IMG/VR virus record: IMGVR_UViG_3300018080_000165
Location: 1 to 64,000 of that record
DNA length: 64,000 nucleotides
Strand: one strand, 5' to 3'
From: a virus
How positions within the stretch are numbered: position 1 is the stretch's first letter; every line of letters starts with the position of its first letter. Both the position numbers and the translations under genes were made by a program. Below the pieces are notes generated by a model that was not told the DNA's origin, ran no database searches, and saw nothing but the letters and a program-made list of their open reading frames with translations. This document shows positions 2,843 to 48,119 of the stretch, one piece after another.

Positions 2843-3159
2843 CACAAACTCTCCAACCTCTTGAGAGCATTGAGTGCTTCATTCCACTTGGCCATGTTTC
2901 TTTTTTTGTTTACGTGTACACGCCACTCCCCTTTGTCCGGTCCTTTTGTGTACACCGATACGCGAATCCTTTCTCGGCACATGAAACAGTATTCATAAAC
3001 ATAGTTGTACACGGAACCGATTTTCATTCGCTGATATATTTCTCCCATGCAGTCAAAGCACATATAGATTTCACAGCACCCATATATGCAAAACAACTTG
3101 TACTTGATAGGGCACCGGCATCTTGCGCATCTCGCGATTCTTTTTTCACCCTGTAGCAT
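2842..3159 (-). CDS. Zinc-ribbon protein of a tandem family (3)
   Basis: This encodes 105 residues, translationally coupled to the DpdA-like gene (its ATG overlaps that gene's TGA). The cysteines are arranged as CARC, CCEIYMCFDC and CFMC. The C-terminal helix KWNEALNALKRLESL matches the tandem family. Being directly downstream of and coupled to the DNA-modification enzyme, it may act with it, but that is inference. Confidence 0.7.
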   Translation of the reverse strand: MLQGEKRIARCARCRCPIKYKLFCIYGCCEIYMCFDCMGEIYQRMKIGSVYNYVYEYCFMCRERIRVSVYTKGPDKGEWRVHVNKKRNMAKWNEALNALKRLESL

Positions 3160-4442
3160 CACTTGTCTCCATAGAACAAGTCCATACCTTCGGAGTCCAA
3201 ACGCTCGACGGGATCAACCTCAGGATCATCCCGTTTGTGCGTGACGAAACGGGGTTTGAACTCTTCAGGCGATGTTCTTTTCCTCGCGCCTGCAGAAACA
3301 AGAAGACCGAGATTGTACGCGCGTCTGAGCGCGTCCAGTTCGTCTGGTTTTGGGTTGGCCATGTCCGCGATCTTCTTTGCCGCGTCATCGGTGAACAGGA
3401 CACCCACATCTTCCGGCGGATTGCTCACGATCCATTTCTTGATCGTCTTCAATCGACCGTGTTGCAGACACGAGAACAGGTAAGCCCGTTCCCGTTTGTC
3501 TTTCATGTCGAGGTTGCCGATCTCTTCTTTTGACAGCCCTTGGGTCAAGAGATACCCCTCAATGCCATCGTCGCTGGCACTCCTCACGACCATGGGCTTG
3601 GGCATTCTCTTTTCCCAATACGCCTTGACCCGATTCACTTTCGCGAGGTATGCTTCCATCTCGACGAACGAAAGCATGTTCATGCGGATTACCTCATAGT
3701 AATCCTCGCTTGCGATCTTGCTCCAGTCAAGCCCAGCGTTTTCGAATTTCACGCGATAGGTCCGGCGGATGTCCTTCTTCGTGTTGTCGTACCGATTGAT
3801 CGTCTTCCCGTTGAAGATGTCCGTCTCCCCGTACTTCGATCCGAGAAGCCACGTTGTCGAATCCACCGAATAGAAGTCGTAGTTCTGAATCTCGGTGCTT
3901 CTCGTGTAGCCGAACACGTGGACTTTGGTCAAGTATTGCCGGGCCGTGGCCATGAGTCGCTGGTAATCGTCGTTAAAGCCGGAACCTATTCCGACGAAAT
4001 CGTATCGCTGGCAGTAGGCTTTGAAATCGTTTTCGTCATGCCACGTGTCGTGCCACACAAAGACGATTGGAACAACGGACTTGTTCATCTTCTCGAAGAT
4101 TTCTTCGCGCCACTTCTGCGCGACATCACCTACAATGGTGTCGATGTCCAGTTCCGCCGCGCAAAAGATATAGTCCCTGTATTTGCGGAGAAACTTGGCG
4201 TAGTCCCTCACGTACCTCTCGTAGAACTTGAGCGGCTTCTTCCATCCCTTCATAAAGAAGGTGAACGCACCCGAGTCAATGAACACGTCGATGTCGGGGT
4301 CCGCGTCCTTCCGCCGCTTGAGGTAGTCAGGATTCTTTCGCAGCGTCCAGTACGTCATCAGCACCGACTTGCCGCCCATCTGCTTCATCGAATCGTAGAA
4401 CTTAGGGACTTCACCACCGGACAAAAACACACGGGTAGGCAT
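3159..4442 (-). CDS. dpdA: DpdA-like DNA 7-deazaguanine transglycosylase
   Basis: The 427-residue protein has the features of phage DpdA proteins, which descend from tRNA-guanine transglycosylases (TGT). FIDSGAF at residues 54-60 corresponds to the TGT DSGGF motif with the base-recognising Asp. YSVDSTTWL at 191-199 carries the Asp expected at the TGT nucleophile position. CAAELDID near 94-101 and GIGSGF near 151-156 fit strands of the TIM barrel. In this family the enzyme exchanges guanine in DNA for a free 7-deazaguanine base. The biosynthetic genes lie 15 kb away (19555-24000). The C-terminal 120 residues are helical and may bind DNA or partners. The family call is fairly sure; DNA as substrate is inferred from the absence of a phage tRNA target. 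Confidence 0.78.
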   Translation of the reverse strand: MPTRVFLSGGEVPKFYDSMKQMGGKSVLMTYWTLRKNPDYLKRRKDADPDIDVFIDSGAFTFFMKGWKKPLKFYERYVRDYAKFLRKYRDYIFCAAELDIDTIVGDVAQKWREEIFEKMNKSVVPIVFVWHDTWHDENDFKAYCQRYDFVGIGSGFNDDYQRLMATARQYLTKVHVFGYTRSTEIQNYDFYSVDSTTWLLGSKYGETDIFNGKTINRYDNTKKDIRRTYRVKFENAGLDWSKIASEDYYEVIRMNMLSFVEMEAYLAKVNRVKAYWEKRMPKPMVVRSASDDGIEGYLLTQGLSKEEIGNLDMKDKRERAYLFSCLQHGRLKTIKKWIVSNPPEDVGVLFTDDAAKKIADMANPKPDELDALRRAYNLGLLVSAGARKRTSPEEFKPRFVTHKRDDPEVDPVERLDSEGMDLFYGDK

Positions 4443-18268: not shown

Positions 18269-18321
18269 GATTCTCTCCTTTCAGATTGTGTTTTCGTCAC
18301 TTGTGAAAACGAAGAAGTCAA

Positions 18322-18663
18322 TCAACCTTTCTCACGTAGCACACACCCACCAGTGCTCTCTTGATTTCGTGTTCGGCGGACTTCTTCGCTTCGAGAGCAT
18401 CCTCTTCCCGACGATGTACTCCGTACTCGGGATGGATTCTCGACTCTTCTTCCGTTGTCATCGTACCCTAGAGAACGCGCGGCTTGATGGACGTACTCAG
18501 CAAACTTCGCGTCCACCGCCGAAAACTCGACGCCCTGTTCTCTCATTGCATCGACCGATTCCAAGGTCTTTTCCCCGATCTTGGCGATGTCCAGGATGTG
18601 CATGTCGTCTTCACGACCCAAGACGACAGCAACTTCGTACAAAAACGCTTTGACACGACCCAT
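18322..18663 (-). CDS. Unknown helical protein downstream of the structured RNA
   Basis: This encodes 113 residues from an ATG with GGGAG upstream; another ATG is two codons earlier. The N-terminal 75 residues are helical (GRVKAFLYEVAVVLGREDDM). The end is basic and low-complexity. It is the first gene downstream of the candidate noncoding RNA, so it may be read from the same promoter. Confidence 0.55.
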   Translation of the reverse strand: MGRVKAFLYEVAVVLGREDDMHILDIAKIGEKTLESVDAMREQGVEFSAVDAKFAEYVHQAARSLGYDDNGRRVENPSRVRSTSSGRGCSRSEEVRRTRNQESTGGCVLREKG

Positions 18664-18689
18664 GGTCATCTCCCTCTCTTTCTTCGGTT

Positions 18690-19335
18690 CACTTCTCAAA
18701 GGCCACTAGCAGTGCTCCCGGCGTTTTCGCGATCCGCCGCTTTTTGCGTCGCGCCTAACCCGCGCTTTCAAGCCAACGTGCCGACCTGTTCCGCGCTCGT
18801 GACGCCGCATTTTGTTTTCGGCTTGAATCGACATACCAGAAGCATTAGCTAGGGGTCTTTTCCCCTATCCACGGCGAGACTGCGACTTTGCACGTGCATT
18901 CCCCGCGACCTGGCCTATCGGCACGGCCCGCTATGGTTTTGGATTGCCTTACGGGACGAGGTTTGCACGCGACAGCTTTTGCCAAGACTTAGAACCTAAC
19001 CATTCCGGTTTTCTGGATTAGGACGGGAGCGAAGATGGCCCGCTTGTCACCACCTAGCCCGATCCGCCGTTCGTCCGAAGGTCTGCTTGGCCGCTTGTCC
19101 GTCTCTGTGTGTTCGCAACCGGGTGCTTTCCCGGTCCACTCGCGGTTTGCGGCCCGCCCCTAGCAATCGTCTCCCGACGATTCCGTGGGCGCGAACCCCG
19201 CTCTTAATCCTGCGATTCATTCCCGCGACCTTGGCTTGCTCCGTTGGATTCGGCTTCAGGCCGTACCCTAGCTCGGGTTCCCCGCGCGTCACATAGAACG
19301 CGATAACCGGGTTTCGCCGTCGCTCGTAAATCGCT
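18690..19335 (-). ncRNA. Candidate large structured noncoding RNA
   Basis: About 650 bases lack credible ORFs but are full of stable stems. Examples are AATCGTC/GACGATT closing a GGGA (GNRA-type) tetraloop (19165-19182), itself enclosed by CGCCC/GGGCG; ACCGGG/CCCGGT (19118-19135); TAGGGG/CCCCTA (18850-18867); a long-range TTCAAGCC/GGCTTGAA pair (18767-18774 with 18820-18827); and a nested CGCGA/TCGCG plus CGC/GCG hairpin (18728-18753). A strong leftward promoter lies at its upstream edge. It is not rRNA, tmRNA, RNase P or a group I intron by its conserved motifs. Size and phage setting recall large ornate RNAs such as GOLLD or ROOL, but I cannot match their consensus. The 3' end is uncertain. 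Confidence 0.6.
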
Positions 19336-19350
19336 CAATTGTCAAAGAAC

Positions 19351-19393
19351 ATTATACTATGTGGCATTATAGCGAAATGCCAGCATAGTGCAA
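19351..19393 (-). promoter_or_regulatory. Strong sigma70-like promoter for the structured RNA
   Basis: On the minus strand TTGCAC (19388-19393) is separated by 16 bases from a perfect TATAAT (19366-19371). A second TATAAT lies 15 bases further (19351-19356). The first -10 box sits inside the hairpin GGCATT/AATGCC, a possible operator. This is the best promoter by sequence in the window and points into the gene-free structured region. Confidence 0.75.
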
Positions 19394-19414
19394 GCACAGA
19401 AAAAACTTTTTCAC

Positions 19415-19456
19415 GTGAAATTTCACTAATTCCTGCACATGGTGCACAAGTGCAGG
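19415..19456. promoter_or_regulatory. Palindromes upstream of the RNA promoter (operators?)
   Basis: A perfect 12-bp palindrome GTGAAATTTCAC (19415-19426) and a 7-bp inverted repeat CCTGCAC/GTGCAGG (19432-19456), with the palindrome GTGCAC in its loop, lie 20-60 bases upstream of the -35 box. They look like regulator-binding sites, or a terminator for the QueE-ended operon plus an operator. The rest of 19457-19554 holds nothing I recognise. Confidence 0.45.
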
Positions 19457-19554
19457 ATAGGGCCACATCTGCTTATAGGTTATCACATGACGGTAGACGG
19501 GGTTTACCAGATTACCTCTATGCGAGCAAAGAAAGGGTATAAGTGACCTTGAAC

Positions 19555-20370
19555 CTATGCCATGCCGAGAAACTTGTGAACCTGTGGGACAAACCTGACG
19601 GCCAAACACCTTTTCACATCGTCGCTGAACGGAAAGGCAAAAGCACATTGATTTGTTTCACGTTGGTTTGAAAACACCTTGTCTTTTTCGGAAAAGATTC
19701 CACTCTCCAATATCACCTTTATCGCATCTGGATGGCCGTCAGCGGGTTGGATGAAAACTTCTCTCACAAAGACTTCTTCTTTCAGGATTTCCTCGACTTC
19801 CCTCATGTCCTGTTCCGTGCCGACAACGAACTTGAAATAGCAATTCGTCATATAACGGACCAATGTAGGAAGCGCACTGCGCCTACCGGAGCTAGAGAGT
19901 TTCGGAGAAATGATCCATGCGTCAATGCAAACGAAATGTTTCGGATCGCACTTGTCCAGAAGTTCCCCGTTCGTTTCGATTGAAGTCCCGAACGCCGGTT
20001 CGATCTCTTTGCAGATTTGAACAATCTGTGGAAGGAAGATAGTAGGCTCACCGCCAGTGAAAACAACATGGCGCTTGTGAAGAGGAAAAGACTTCAAAAC
20101 AGAAATAACATACTCGACAGATAACGAAAGGTGTTTTGTTTCCGCCTGACTCGGTTTGATATTTTCCGGTTTGTAGCCGCTATCGCACCAACTACATGTT
20201 CGATTGCATCCAAGAGTCCTCAGAAAAACAGAAGGAAGGCCAACTGTTGGACCTTCCCCGGAAATCGTCTCATAAATTTCATGTACACCAATTTCTTTAG
20301 GAGTTCCTTGCCTCCGCATAAGATGTATTCGTTTCCCAAACGCGAAGGGAGTCCAGTCTTGCGGATTCAT
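19555..20370 (-). CDS. queE: 7-carboxy-7-deazaguanine synthase (QueE)
   Basis: The enzyme is a radical SAM protein that converts 6-carboxy-tetrahydropterin to 7-carboxy-7-deazaguanine (CDG). The longest frame has 271 residues. The iron-sulfur motif CNRTCSWCD is at about 55-63, after EIYETISGEGPTVGLPSVFLR, the typical QueE opening. FTGGEP near residue 114 is the SAM-binding GGE motif. The start is uncertain: ATG at 20370 overlaps queD by 74 bases with a weak RBS, and another ATG is at 20319. It is the last gene of the que operon. Confidence 0.9.
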   Translation of the reverse strand: MNPQDWTPFAFGKRIHLMRRQGTPKEIGVHEIYETISGEGPTVGLPSVFLRTLGCNRTCSWCDSGYKPENIKPSQAETKHLSLSVEYVISVLKSFPLHKRHVVFTGGEPTIFLPQIVQICKEIEPAFGTSIETNGELLDKCDPKHFVCIDAWIISPKLSSSGRRSALPTLVRYMTNCYFKFVVGTEQDMREVEEILKEEVFVREVFIQPADGHPDAIKVILESGIFSEKDKVFSNQRETNQCAFAFPFSDDVKRCLAVRFVPQVHKFLGMA

Positions 20371-20713
20371 GCTCGAAACACTCCTTCATCTCCGCGAACC
20401 AATGAAGCGCCAACACTTCAACCGTAGGGTCTTGATGGATTATGAACACGTGTTCCCTGAAGCCGCCCTCAATGAGAACGCCCGCGAGAGGATCGTCTAT
20501 TTTGAGAACGACTTTATGATCCCATCTCTCCACGACGTGTTTCAACTTTTTGAGTTCCGCGAAGTCCACCACAAATCCGTTGTCGCCTATGTTGCCGTAG
20601 GCCGTCAACTCCACGCGGTAGTTGTGCCCGTGCAAGAAACGACACTTCCCTTCGTGCCGCATCAACCTATGGGCGATAGAGAACTCGCCCAAAAATTTCG
20701 TTACCTTGACCAT
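20297..20713 (-). CDS. queD: 6-carboxy-tetrahydropterin synthase (QueD)
   Basis: The 138-residue protein is of normal QueD size. It makes 6-carboxy-5,6,7,8-tetrahydropterin from dihydroneopterin triphosphate. CRFLHGHNYRVE holds the catalytic Cys and two zinc-binding His; FSIAHRL supplies the first zinc His; FVVDFAELKK and WDHKVVL are the conserved core and catalytic Asp/His. The start follows GAGG. It lies between queE and a small zinc protein in the operon. Confidence 0.92.
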   Translation of the reverse strand: MVKVTKFLGEFSIAHRLMRHEGKCRFLHGHNYRVELTAYGNIGDNGFVVDFAELKKLKHVVERWDHKVVLKIDDPLAGVLIEGGFREHVFIIHQDPTVEVLALHWFAEMKECFEHESARLDSLRVWETNTSYAEARNS

Positions 20714-20717
20714 TAGT

Positions 20718-20915
20718 TTACCTCATTCCTAGGCTACCTCTTCCTTTGTCCTTGCACGCATTCCGACCGAGTTTTTGTTCGATCCACACTTGCGCCATGG
20801 GCCGATCTTCTTTCTTCAACGTCTTGAAATCCTCAAAGCACTCATTACACACGGCATGTCCCGCGATTGTCCTATGAGGATTCCCTTCGTTTTCCCGGCA
20901 GGCGCAACATCTCAT
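20718..20915 (-). CDS. Small zinc-ribbon protein in the que operon
   Basis: This 65-residue protein begins CCACRENEGNPHRTIAGHAVCNECFEDF, a Cys4(His) site typical of phage zinc-binding peptides, followed by a basic helix. It lies between queD and the YegP-like gene with tight spacing. Function unknown. Confidence 0.65.
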   Translation of the reverse strand: MRCCACRENEGNPHRTIAGHAVCNECFEDFKTLKKEDRPMAQVWIEQKLGRNACKDKGRGSLGMR

Positions 20916-20918
20916 ACC

Positions 20919-21224
20919 CTACTCTCCTTTGTCTTCTTCGGATTTTTCACCTTCATCTTCCTTGGGCGCTTCTTCAGGGGATACGACAGTCTTCGGAGGA
21001 GCGTCAAAGACGTACTCGACAGTCTTGTTCTTTACGGCTTCGGTGAAATTCCGAAACATGTTCACGCAATCGACACGGTTCTCGTAGCCTTGCCCGCCTT
21101 GCGAGCCGGTGCCGAAGAGATAATTCCCGTTGGCACTGTACACGCTTACCTCGTGTTTGGCTTTCTTTCCCTTTCCCTGCCTGCTGAACACGACTTGATG
21201 AGTCATCTTTCCTGAAATCGCCAT
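20919..21224 (-). CDS. YegP/DUF1508-like protein, with a possible membrane-anchored long form
   Basis: The short form (101 residues) starts at an ATG with AAGGAG upstream. SANGNYLFGTGSQGG and YENRVDCVNMFRNF resemble the DUF1508/YegP repeat (ANGxxLxxSxxYxxxxxxxxGIxSV). The end is acidic (EEAPKEDEGEKSEEDKGE). The frame continues upstream without a stop to ATGs at 21329 and 21341, adding one membrane segment (LMYALTIIALVGALSFFAFW). So a membrane-anchored 136-140-residue isoform could share the same C-terminus. The still longer frame runs through the tRNA-like fragment and is unlikely. Confidence 0.65.
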   Translation of the reverse strand: MAISGKMTHQVVFSRQGKGKKAKHEVSVYSANGNYLFGTGSQGGQGYENRVDCVNMFRNFTEAVKNKTVEYVFDAPPKTVVSPEEAPKEDEGEKSEEDKGE

Positions 21225-21386
21225 TGATTCGCTCCTTTCTTTCTCTTCAATCTTACTTCTCCAAAAAGCAAAAAACGACAATGCTCCCACAAGAGCTATG
21301 ATCGTGAGCGCATACATTAGGTCTACCATGTGATCTCTCATGGTTTTACTCGCTCGTGATTCGAAGTTCTCCAAAACAGCGCGTCG

Positions 21387-21414
21387 TGGCTCCCCCGCCT
21401 GGATTCGAACCAGG
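21387..21414 (-). other. tRNA 3'-end fragment (T-arm, acceptor strand, CCA)
   Basis: On the minus strand a perfect T-arm (CCTGG, loop TTCGAAT, CCAGG; 21398-21414) is followed directly by a 7-base acceptor strand CGGGGGA, one discriminator base and CCA. No matching 5' acceptor strand, D-arm or anticodon arm lies in the 60 bases upstream, so this is not a full tRNA. Such 3' ends occur as phage attachment cores copied from a host tRNA gene, or as remnants of a decayed tRNA gene. Confidence 0.55.
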
Positions 21415-21539
21415 AATCGCGGATTACGCAGAAAGACGGAGCCTCCCAACAGTAACGGCACGATGACAAACAGCACAGAGCAACACGCACTTCTCAGCTT
21501 CTTTCCGCAGTCGTTCATATGATTCATTACACCCAGCAA

Positions 21540-21632
21540 TTACAAATAGCTTTCGTATGCCTTTTCGATGATGAAAGTCAAAGCCTTCTCGCCCATCTCG
21601 CGTCGGCGTTTTGTCTTCGTCCCTTTCTGCAT
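21540..21632 (-). CDS. Tiny basic protein (30 residues)
   Basis: The frame has an ideal ribosome binding site (AAGGAG seven bases before ATG). The N-terminal half is basic (QKGTKTKRRRE), the C-terminal half an amphipathic helix (KALTFIIEKAYESYL). It lies between folE and the tRNA-like fragment. The RBS is the main support. Confidence 0.5.
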   Translation of the reverse strand: MQKGTKTKRRREMGEKALTFIIEKAYESYL

Positions 21633-21676
21633 TTTCAATCTCCTTCGCCGTCGTGATACCATTTCACCACAGGGAA

Positions 21677-22243
21677 TCATTTTATGTGCTCCAGGATTTC
21701 ATCCTTGACTTGCAAACCCGCTTGCCCGAGCACGACGCAGACTTTGGTCGCCGCATGGATGTCACCAGTTCCCGTGCATACACACGCATGGTGGGCCTTG
21801 GAGAGAACGCAAACGGCTTCAGGTTTGAGCCTTTCTTCAAGCTCTGCGGCGATTCTATGCGTGAACTCTTCTTGAAGAGTTCCGACCTTCGAGAAGAATT
21901 CAACCAACTGTGGAAGTTTCGAGAATCCGACGATGTGTTTTCCTGGTAAATAACCGATTCCGACTGTCCCATAGAACGGCACGAAGTGATGTTGGCAGAT
22001 CGATACGAAACAGATGTCTCGCATGACAACGATGTCGTTCCCTCTTGATTTGAACAACTTGAAGTCGAAAGGTAATCGGTGAGGATAGCGATCATTGATC
22101 TTGTCCTTGTTCGCTGTCATCTGTTCAAGCATCTTGACGACACGCCGGGGAGTCTCCAGCGTTTCGTTCTTCAGCTTTATGCCTAGATGGTGGCACATCC
22201 GGGCATAGGCTTTTTCAGCCGATTTACGCTTTCTGGCGTTCAC
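21677..22243 (-). CDS. folE: GTP cyclohydrolase I (FolE), divergent active site
   Basis: This enzyme starts the pathway by opening GTP to dihydroneopterin triphosphate. It has 188 residues. SICQHHFVPFYG at 81-92 carries the zinc Cys and His pair, and GYLPGKHIVGFSKL and QLVEFFS are typical GCH-I core. HHAC near 151-154 supplies the second zinc Cys. Two oddities: the usual C-E-H-H is C-Q-H-H, and the conserved A-R-G after the second Cys is replaced by CTGTG, losing the triphosphate-binding Arg. It may be slower or use a different substrate. It overlaps queC by 20 bases. Confidence 0.85.
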   Translation of the reverse strand: MNARKRKSAEKAYARMCHHLGIKLKNETLETPRRVVKMLEQMTANKDKINDRYPHRLPFDFKLFKSRGNDIVVMRDICFVSICQHHFVPFYGTVGIGYLPGKHIVGFSKLPQLVEFFSKVGTLQEEFTHRIAAELEERLKPEAVCVLSKAHHACVCTGTGDIHAATKVCVVLGQAGLQVKDEILEHIK

Positions 22244-22925
22244 AGAACTCCTCCCAACCCTTCTTTCGGAGTAAGCAAGCTGGACATTTTCCGCATCCGT
22301 GTCCCCAACTGTGTTTGCCTAACCCTGTGTTATAGCAAGTCGCTGTTTCAGTCAAGATGGTTTCCAGAACGCCCAACTCATCCGCTGCTTCAAAGATGCG
22401 CGCCTTCGTCATGTTTATTAACGGCGTGAACAGGCGCACAGTGTTCTTAGGCAATCCCAAGGCGAAGTTGATAGCGTCTTCACACGCAGCAACAAACTCA
22501 TAACGGCAATCAGGATAGCCGCTGGAATCCGCTTGGCACACGCCGCTGTAGATGTGCTCTATCCCCCGGCTGACGGCCACTCCGGCAGCGATAGAGAAGA
22601 ACACCATGTTCCGGCCAGGAACAAACGACGTGGGCAATCCCTTGAACCTCTTGCTTTCCTCGATCTTCTCAAAACTGTACCCTGTCAGAGCGGAATCGAG
22701 GAGTGCTCCGTAGTTCTTCAAATCAACGGTGTCGTGCTTGCGGACTTCGAAGATTTTCCCTATCCGCTTTGCTTGGAGCAGTTCCATCTCATGCCGCTGG
22801 CCGTAACAAAAAGACAGAGCATCCACGAACGGATACTTGAAGTTCCGTTTCATCAGCGCAAGACAGGTTGCCGAATCCTGTCCGCCGGAAAGAAGAATCA
22901 GTGCGCCTTTTTGTCCTGATTCCAT
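22224..22925 (-). CDS. queC: 7-cyano-7-deazaguanine (preQ0) synthase, QueC
   Basis: The protein has 233 residues from the ATG with AAGG upstream. It converts CDG to preQ0 with ATP and ammonia. The PP-loop SGGQDS lies at residues 13-18, with FCYGQRHEMEL just after it. FVPGRNMVFFSIA is a conserved QueC core segment. CYNTGLGKHSWGHGCGKCPAC gives the four zinc Cys near the C-terminus. All signatures of QueC are present. It overlaps the paralogue upstream by 28 bases. Confidence 0.93.
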   Translation of the reverse strand: MESGQKGALILLSGGQDSATCLALMKRNFKYPFVDALSFCYGQRHEMELLQAKRIGKIFEVRKHDTVDLKNYGALLDSALTGYSFEKIEESKRFKGLPTSFVPGRNMVFFSIAAGVAVSRGIEHIYSGVCQADSSGYPDCRYEFVAACEDAINFALGLPKNTVRLFTPLINMTKARIFEAADELGVLETILTETATCYNTGLGKHSWGHGCGKCPACLLRKKGWEEFCERQKA

Positions 22926-23596
22926 TTCTTGTACACCTTCTGTGCAGAGGTTATCGCGGAAGCCCGAACCAAACATGCGAGGCACACTTCGCAACCTTTT
23001 GGATCGTAGTTGCAGGAATTCGTTTTTTCAAGATCGATGCCGAGACTAAGCGCGAGCAAAGCAACTTGATGCTTCTGGAATCCGCATTCAAGAAACGGCG
23101 CTCGTATCTCGGTGATTTCGTCTTTCGTGAAGCCGCCGACTTCCTGAAGTTCCCGATACGTGTCAAGGAAAGCGGAAGTGCGATCCGAATGCGGTTCCTC
23201 CTCTTCGTGATGGAAACCCACGAACAGGTCCATCTCTTCTATGCTGGCCAAACAAGCGCCCTGTGTGATGAGGAAAGTGTTCCTTCCGTTGATGTAGTCC
23301 TTGGCAATGGAACTGCGTCCAGGTTCTATCTTCTCGCCAAAGCGGAAAATCGGCCCGCCTTTGACTTCATCTTTCATCGGTATGTCAGCCCTGTGCCTCA
23401 CCAAGAATCCTCTCCCGAGAACTCCTTGATGATACTCGACGTACTCTATGGACTTTTCTGTTGTCACTTGCCCGAAGTCAACGACCAAGTTGATGATCCG
23501 TTCTTCAGGGTTCACTCCGTACACAAAGGGGTTCTTTGCGATGGCATAGAACAGCGCGGTAGAATCTAGTCCTCCAGAAGCCAGGATCACGGGCAT
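22898..23596 (-). CDS. QueC paralogue (second PP-loop enzyme)
   Basis: The 232-residue protein starts after AAGGAG. It keeps the PP-loop SGGLDS (7-12), the YINGRNTFLI core and a C-terminal zinc cluster NSCNYDPKGCEVCLAC. It is clearly different from the queC next to it, and the early Y-G-Q-x-H motif is replaced by VDFGQVTTEKSIEY. Having two QueC-type enzymes in one operon suggests the second performs another ATP-dependent step on a 7-deazaguanine or its carboxylate. QueC redundancy or a DNA-level tailoring step are alternatives. Confidence 0.8.
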   Translation of the reverse strand: MPVILASGGLDSTALFYAIAKNPFVYGVNPEERIINLVVDFGQVTTEKSIEYVEYHQGVLGRGFLVRHRADIPMKDEVKGGPIFRFGEKIEPGRSSIAKDYINGRNTFLITQGACLASIEEMDLFVGFHHEEEEPHSDRTSAFLDTYRELQEVGGFTKDEITEIRAPFLECGFQKHQVALLALSLGIDLEKTNSCNYDPKGCEVCLACLVRASAITSAQKVYKKWNQDKKAH

Positions 23597-40386: not shown

Positions 40387-40445
40387 GTTGAATCCTCCCA
40401 AGAACGCGCGCACGCGCATAAAAGAAGACTTCAATGACATCCTCT

Positions 40446-40507
40446 GTTACGATAGTAACATAGGTGTCTCTATATATCACGAGCGAAGCGAGTGATATAT
40501 AGAGACA
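40446..40507. repeat. Long perfect inverted repeat in a replication intergenic region
   Basis: Two 16-bp arms, TGTCTCTATATATCAC (40465-40480) and GTGATATATAGAGACA (40492-40507), pair perfectly around an 11-base loop. A 5-bp stem GTTAC/GTAAC lies at 40446-40459, and a TATAATAATTATA A/T-rich segment follows to 40530. A -10-like TATAAT on the minus strand overlaps it. It may be an intrinsic terminator, an operator, or an origin-like element given its place between a DNA-binding replication protein and the helicase loader. Confidence 0.6.
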
Positions 40508-40554
40508 TATTATAATAATTATATTGCGTATGCAGTGTACTAGTACAAGAAGGT

Positions 40555-47060: not shown

Positions 47061-47069
47061 CGTCTTCTC

Positions 47070-48110
47070 CTACGGACAAGTGTTGCACGTAATGCAGGGC
47101 GGCAACTGAGCCGCGCAGAAGCCTGGATTCGCGAAGTCAACACAACACGCTGCCATTTCCACAGTGAATCCGTAGCTCCCGCAACAAGGAAGACAGTTGA
47201 AGTCATCAACCCAAAATGCGATGTCCGTTGTCACGATGTTCCCAAAAGGCTGACAAAGACACTGAAAATACTTTGCCCCTCCCGGTCCTCCACCGATCAA
47301 GTTTCCACACGGAGTACATCCGCCTGAAACCAAAGTTGTGCACAGTTTTGTAGGGCACACGCCGAAGATGTTTGTAAAACGGATCAGCGTCATTATACAT
47401 CTCGATGGAACAGTGTTGTTGACACTGGAAATCCTGAGAAGATGTGTAGCGTCTGGAGGACCGCCCGGCCTTCGGCCCGTGCAGACATTCATGGAAACGC
47501 CGCTGACAGGCACATATGCTGGAACAAAGCAGTTCGCGCTCCACCCTGGGGCGGCTTGTGACCAAACAGGCATGAGAAACGTGTGTGCTCCTGGAGCGCA
47601 AGGCACAGGCACATCTCCCGTGCAGCAAAGGTTCAACTCGATTCCCACATCTACATTCAGTTCACAGCAAGAGCAAAGTTCGTCTGCCGTGTTTTTCAAC
47701 GTAACGGAAATCGTCTTTGTTTCCCCGGCGTTGATCCAACAACGGGAAGCAAGCGATTCGATGAACTCGGTTGAAGAGGGACAGAGAAGACATCCTTCTC
47801 TGTAACTGTTGATTGTAACCGCTCCTCTCACAGCGATGGCACAGGTAGTGTTATTGAACACGTCCACTGTGTAAGTAAGTGTGAATCCGTCTATAGCTAT
47901 ACACTGGCCGTAAGGACGGATGAAACAGATTGTCTTGTTTGTCCATCCGGTAGCGTAGAGTTTCAACGGCGGTGGTGTTGCACAATCCGAAGGGCCAACA
48001 GTTATTGTTCCGATGCTTCCCAAGTCAAGGGAATCCTGTGCGCATCCGATGGCAATGTCGGAATTGTCACAACAACAATCAGGATGTGGAGACATTGCCG
48101 GAACAGCCAT
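47070..48110 (-). CDS. Extremely cysteine-rich virion protein
   Basis: The 346-residue protein has 35 Cys (one in ten), often as CC or CxC pairs (HPDCCCDNS, CSCCELNVD, NCLPCCGS, CITCNTCP). Beta-rich segments such as LTYTVDVFNNTTCAIAVRG and INAGETKTISVTLKN resemble Ig-like/DUF11 adhesion domains. Such content fits a disulfide-stabilised extracellular part of the tail or fiber. The start follows GAGG. Confidence 0.6.
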   Translation of the reverse strand: MAVPAMSPHPDCCCDNSDIAIGCAQDSLDLGSIGTITVGPSDCATPPPLKLYATGWTNKTICFIRPYGQCIAIDGFTLTYTVDVFNNTTCAIAVRGAVTINSYREGCLLCPSSTEFIESLASRCWINAGETKTISVTLKNTADELCSCCELNVDVGIELNLCCTGDVPVPCAPGAHTFLMPVWSQAAPGWSANCFVPAYVPVSGVSMNVCTGRRPGGPPDATHLLRISSVNNTVPSRCIMTLIRFTNIFGVCPTKLCTTLVSGGCTPCGNLIGGGPGGAKYFQCLCQPFGNIVTTDIAFWVDDFNCLPCCGSYGFTVEMAACCVDFANPGFCAAQLPPCITCNTCP

Positions 48111-48119
48111 CGTGATCCT

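Follow-up and report, generated by a model that had tools for sequence, protein, structure and literature searches.

A candidate noncoding RNA of some 640-670 nucleotides with its own promoter in a gene-dense tailed-phage genome

Large phage RNAs and the locus under study

The Vibrio phage ICP1 produces an unclassified noncoding transcript of ~800 nt, measured by RNA-seq, from a 1-kb gap without open reading frames (ORFs) between gp139 and gp140 (PMC7567579). Among the large RNAs that have been assigned to families, GOLLD RNA is often located near tRNAs or in phage tRNA islands (PMC12286853). Here we describe a gap in a window of 64,000 bases (positions 1-64000 in a virus record of 76,077 bases) whose layout, by analogy, appears closest to that of the ICP1 RNA. 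Both are long ORF-less gaps of comparable length between phage genes on the same strand, without an Rfam match or adjacent tRNAs, and with CTAG more frequent than in the rest of the phage. No sequence similarity between them was found, however, and the ICP1 region ends, by eye, in a terminator-like hairpin followed by a T-run, whereas the present gap has none. In addition, the ICP1 transcript was measured by RNA-seq, whereas the RNA proposed here is a prediction from sequence.

The earlier note on this DNA had been reminded of GOLLD and ROOL, and the likeness holds for the length class and the phage setting. ROOL (RF03087) occurs in phages or mobile elements and has an equally unremarkable folding energy, but the gap has no covariance-model match, whereas the ROOL of plasmid pMP118 is found by the same method at 130 bits. 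GOLLD differs likewise in the missing Rfam match, and ARAGORN finds no tRNA gene in the window. The sequence evidence does not support assigning the gap to either family. Phage antitermination leader RNAs of the put or nut type lie between an operon promoter and the first gene, a position that the present region shares, but they are much shorter.

The record belongs to a tailed phage with portal, major head protein, terminase and a long tape-measure-like ORF, and with replication genes for DNA polymerase I, a primase, a DnaB-like helicase and a UvsX-like recombinase. Named relatives are remote, the terminase being ~30-35% identical to those of Bacteroides phage BS162P1 and Streptomyces phage BRock. 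The terminase large subunit (L008:9189-12053, record 69189-72053, minus strand) is split by an intein with a LAGLIDADG domain; an insertion at the same site is present in BS162P1 and absent from BRock. The same phage is represented by another record (75,833 bases), which from 19661 rightwards has essentially the same sequence (56 kb, essentially 100%) and extends the far end by ~19.4 kb; the phage genome thus measures at least ~95 kb (roughly 100 kb). Since this second record starts at 19661, inside the QueE gene, it is neutral with respect to the gap.

The gene-free gap and its promoter

A gene caller that had been trained on codon usage in this phage yields 97 genes in the 64-kb window, of which 96 run on the minus strand. 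The stretch from 18670 to 19554 (885 nt) is the sole gap above ~330 nt that is not filled by an ORF; other long gaps hold ORFs of 346 codons (1059 nt, 47061-48119) and of 152 and 146 codons (504 and 490 nt). Upstream it is bordered by a QueE-like radical SAM gene (19555-20370, minus strand), the end of a 7-deazaguanine synthesis cassette, and downstream by an ORF of 115 codons without a family but with a ribosome-binding site (18322-18669, minus strand). Codon scores are near zero, stops occur in every frame, and read-through translations match no PHROG family, from which we conclude that the gap is noncoding. The earlier estimate of ~650 nt without genes is thereby confirmed, the gap being slightly wider, and a reading as a protein gene is rejected on codon scores, stops, Pfam and PHROGs.

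The predicted RNA body (~640-670 nt, 58% GC) spans 18690-19359 on the minus strand and is composed of 25% A, 26% C, 33% G and 16% U. GC content is 44% in the promoter spacer versus 58-64% in the body (58% overall). The tetranucleotide CTAG, rare in the phage's genes, occurs five times in the body against 0.5 expected, a 10-fold enrichment, and is apparently enriched in the noncoding transcript of ICP1 and in the ROOL RNA used as control as well. We also considered a degenerate tRNA or tmRNA array and rejected it, because relaxed-threshold ARAGORN matches are equally dense across the whole window and therefore represent noise.

The body is preceded by a -35 hexamer TTGCAC (19388-19393) within the motif CTTGNACTA (19386-19394), a 16-nt spacer and a -10 hexamer TATAAT (19366-19371), which places the predicted transcript start at ~19359; a second TATAAT (19351-19356) follows 15 nt downstream of the first. 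Sequence statistics uphold the TTGCAC-N16-TATAAT promoter that had been proposed, at 19393-19366 on the minus strand like all neighbouring genes. Within the 76-kb record CTTGNACTA is found at 19394 and 40549 only (both minus), and the complete layout CTTGNACTA...TATAAT...TATAAT exists in exactly two copies, both intergenic, on the minus strand and correctly oriented. The pattern TTGNAC-N13..21-TATAAT is observed twice in 76 kb compared to a mean of 0.05 in shuffled sequences, with none of 150 shuffles reaching two, a count that is indicative only because the pattern was picked after the first site had been seen. Two close TATAAT hexamers are likewise observed twice versus 0.01 in shuffles. A generic consensus scan missed the promoter since its -35 hexamer matches at three of six positions.

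The second copy, CTTGTACTA with TATAAT hexamers at 40523 and 40514 (40549-40514, region 40387-40554, minus strand), opens a gene block. Its predicted transcript begins with a perfect 15-bp hairpin (GTCTCTATATATCAC...) and has a leader of ~110-130 nt before the first ORF. Over the promoter at the gap lies a dyad, ACTATG(C)TGGCATT-TCGCTAT-AATGCCACATAGT (19356-19389, read directly), whose 13-bp arms with one bulged base resemble an operator; 7 bp of it recur in the predicted fold. Further upstream, after QueE and ~20 nt before a T6 run, the hairpin TCCTGCAC...GTGCAGGA (19431-19457, minus strand, z -2.9) might act as a weak terminator for the operon upstream, although the terminator scan did not recognise it.

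Predicted folding and the search for relatives

The earlier note pictured a large, ornate RNA with many stable stems. Its core, a noncoding region of ~650 nt with its own promoter, stands on the sequence evidence; the folding, in contrast, is no better than that of shuffled sequences. The 667-nt minus-strand RNA has a predicted energy of -251 kcal/mol, with z of -0.33 and -0.61 in two runs against shuffles (plus strand of the body +0.54 and +0.64), and it does not differ from the shuffles in ensemble entropy, in well-defined positions or in strong pairs. The stems are unremarkable because a sequence of this length and 58% GC gives them in any case, and these model statistics neither support nor refute the label 'ornate'. 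The perfect 8-bp long-range pair is present, but such pairs occur at chance level (5 against 5.1 +- 3.0 in dinucleotide shuffles). The GNRA-type tetraloop is also there (GGGA at 19172-19175, on a 7-bp stem), yet a GNRA hairpin of at least 5 bp appears in 22 of 100 shuffles.

This loop caps the first (19158-19189) of two stem structures that form the most stable domain (19089-19200, minus strand). The interval 19081-19210 has a z of -3.6 (-3.59), none of 200 shuffles being as stable, and the scan window 19081-19200 reaches -4.15; after scanning this stability is weak, because ~2% of 158 phage coding windows reach z -3.8. Adenine makes up 0.51 of the predicted unpaired bases versus 0.461 +- 0.017 in shuffles (0 of 100 as high; z 2.2 by pairing probabilities). 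In the models, the adenine excess and the stable domain lean towards structure. The CTAG excess favours a noncoding character more than any particular fold. The same folding procedure was calibrated on the ROOL of plasmid pMP118 (L167:2264-2806, 130 bits in Rfam), which gives a z of -1.23, and on the ICP1 noncoding transcript (z -1.96). As a verified ROOL RNA scores so modestly, folding energy is a weak test that cannot decide the matter, and candidates of this kind need transcription data or homologues.

A covariance-model search with all 4227 Rfam families returned no match to the region, in agreement with the initial impression that no family obviously fits, and GOLLD, ROOL, HEARO and OLE, which had been named for comparison, all failed to match; the ROOL of pMP118 served as positive control (ROOL gathering score 99.1 bits). 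Searches for homologues came up empty in phages, plasmids, E. coli and IMG/VR, in 43 related records, and, by blastn and nhmmer, in 3.1 Mb of loci (ICP1 locus L168 included). When the stable domain by itself was used to build a covariance model, a scan of 1.2 Mb of relatives returned only the domain itself, and none of the long gaps in 14 related records is similar. Searches through the neighbouring QueE and polymerase genes, and through terminase in IMG/VR and GTDB genomes, led only to the same phage or to relatives without the sequence, the closest of which have at most 59% terminase identity and lie on short contigs. The repeated motif AGGTCGCGGGRAATG was rejected as a family handle, its occurrences in 71 viral contigs being chance matches with dissimilar flanks.

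Several related phages do have long gene-free gaps, some of them GC-rich and CTAG-rich, which are unrelated to the one described here. Three related records (G026, G032, G041; L212:7067-7774, L220:16884-17619 and L227) have in common a GC-rich noncoding block with 74-79% identity over pieces of ~150 nt and without an Rfam match, possibly a separate noncoding RNA family. Two related phage records carry matches to the Type II hammerhead ribozyme just above the gathering score (L198:16655-16722 and L191:13405-13468).

Possible readings of the region

What sequence analysis shows is the gap and its promoter, together with the absence of coding character and of any known family. Some general features of a large structured noncoding RNA are present: the region is noncoding, several hundred nucleotides long, and has its own promoter. 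Among the 97 called genes, which follow one another in one direction, no other long gap is truly free of genes. A noncoding minus-strand RNA of ~640-670 nt that starts at ~19359 is therefore likely. We tentatively propose, at somewhat under an even chance, that this RNA is transcribed from the promoter at 19393-19366 and exists free of the downstream mRNA. Host RNA polymerase would start at ~19359, and the operator-like dyad would let a phage or host regulator time transcription. The RNA may fold into several domains around the stable hairpins at 19089-19200, be cut away from the downstream mRNA by processing, and accumulate in a structural or regulatory role as an orphan-class RNA, comparable to the ~800-nt ICP1 RNA. 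Speaking for this reading, besides the gap and the promoter layout, are the rise in GC content, the CTAG enrichment, the adenine excess, the stable domain and the ICP1 precedent; speaking against it are the shuffle-like fold statistics of the whole region, the missing 3' terminator and the homologue searches, which gave no sign of conservation.

The processing step would be needed because a terminator scan gave no hit on the minus strand from the body to the ORF at 18669, where a free-standing RNA gene would have its own. For the same reason the body may instead belong to the mRNA of the operon that runs leftwards from 18669, as a long 5' untranslated leader that acts in cis, e.g., by put- or nut-like antitermination or by translation control; the promoter would then serve this operon, with no separate RNA being made. 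We rate this as rather unlikely, although a ribosome-binding site and ATG come directly after the body and the promoter copy at 40549 likewise opens a gene block, with a short leader starting with its 15-bp hairpin. A phage leader of 650 nt would be very long; only ~110-130 nt separate the sister promoter from its first ORF, and no cis-regulatory Rfam family was matched.

Fold statistics at shuffle level would equally suit a body that acts as DNA (replication origin, packaging or partition site) or that is acquired or neutral filler without function. A long gap of a relative lends this reading some support: the 1.3 kb between divergent genes at L181:12898-14231 (record G016) are packed with many CTGTGGATAA/TTATCCACA DnaA-box-like repeats and, judged from these, are likely a replication origin. 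The gap at 18670-19554 has no DnaA boxes, for which reason an origin was rejected here; it also shows no change in GC skew and, apart from weak matches in two copies, neither tandem nor iteron-like repeats, and 0.9 kb of filler would be odd in so dense a genome. We thus regard a DNA element or filler as unlikely, and as less likely, together with a decayed gene, than a free RNA or a leader. That the gap holds a gene which has decayed or was missed, or a number of very small genes, is highly improbable: the codon score of an 81-codon GTG ORF (19047-19292) is weakly gene-like (0.13-0.14), but this ORF has neither a family nor a convincing ribosome-binding site, and all frames are broken by stops and read-through frames lack matches.

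Returning to a free noncoding RNA, a bolder version holds that it is a large phage RNA of a new class, without sequence kinship to GOLLD, ROOL and the ICP1 RNA, with a dedicated regulated promoter beside the 7-deazaguanine cassette, and that it would form an RNA-only or RNA-protein particle during infection; we consider this unlikely. If transcribed and structured, the RNA would add to GOLLD, ROOL and the ICP1 RNA another large RNA of obscure role kept by phages, and would suggest that large orphan RNAs are more frequent in phages than is apparent from Rfam.

The cassette directly upstream of the gap comprises QueE, QueD, FolE and two QueC-like genes. The latter two are adjacent (19555-23596), and a queuine tRNA-ribosyltransferase-like protein (PHROG 887) is encoded at 3159-4442, all on the minus strand. 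The phage DNA is probably modified by means of these 7-deazaguanine genes, and the divergent second QueC may have a different role. A tRNA-like fragment ~2 kb from the gap (21385-21443, minus strand; GGCTCC...CCTGG-TTCGAAT-CCAGG...GGAGCCA) was called by neither ARAGORN nor Rfam; with an acceptor and a perfect T arm but no D arm, it may represent the remains of a tRNA, a tRNA end of the attP kind or a mimic of a tRNA. On the other side of the gap, the ORF at 18318-18669 (minus strand) shows an apparent frame change near 18461, where an alternative frame of 47 codons is more gene-like; this seems to be an overlap, a sequencing error or a frameshift.
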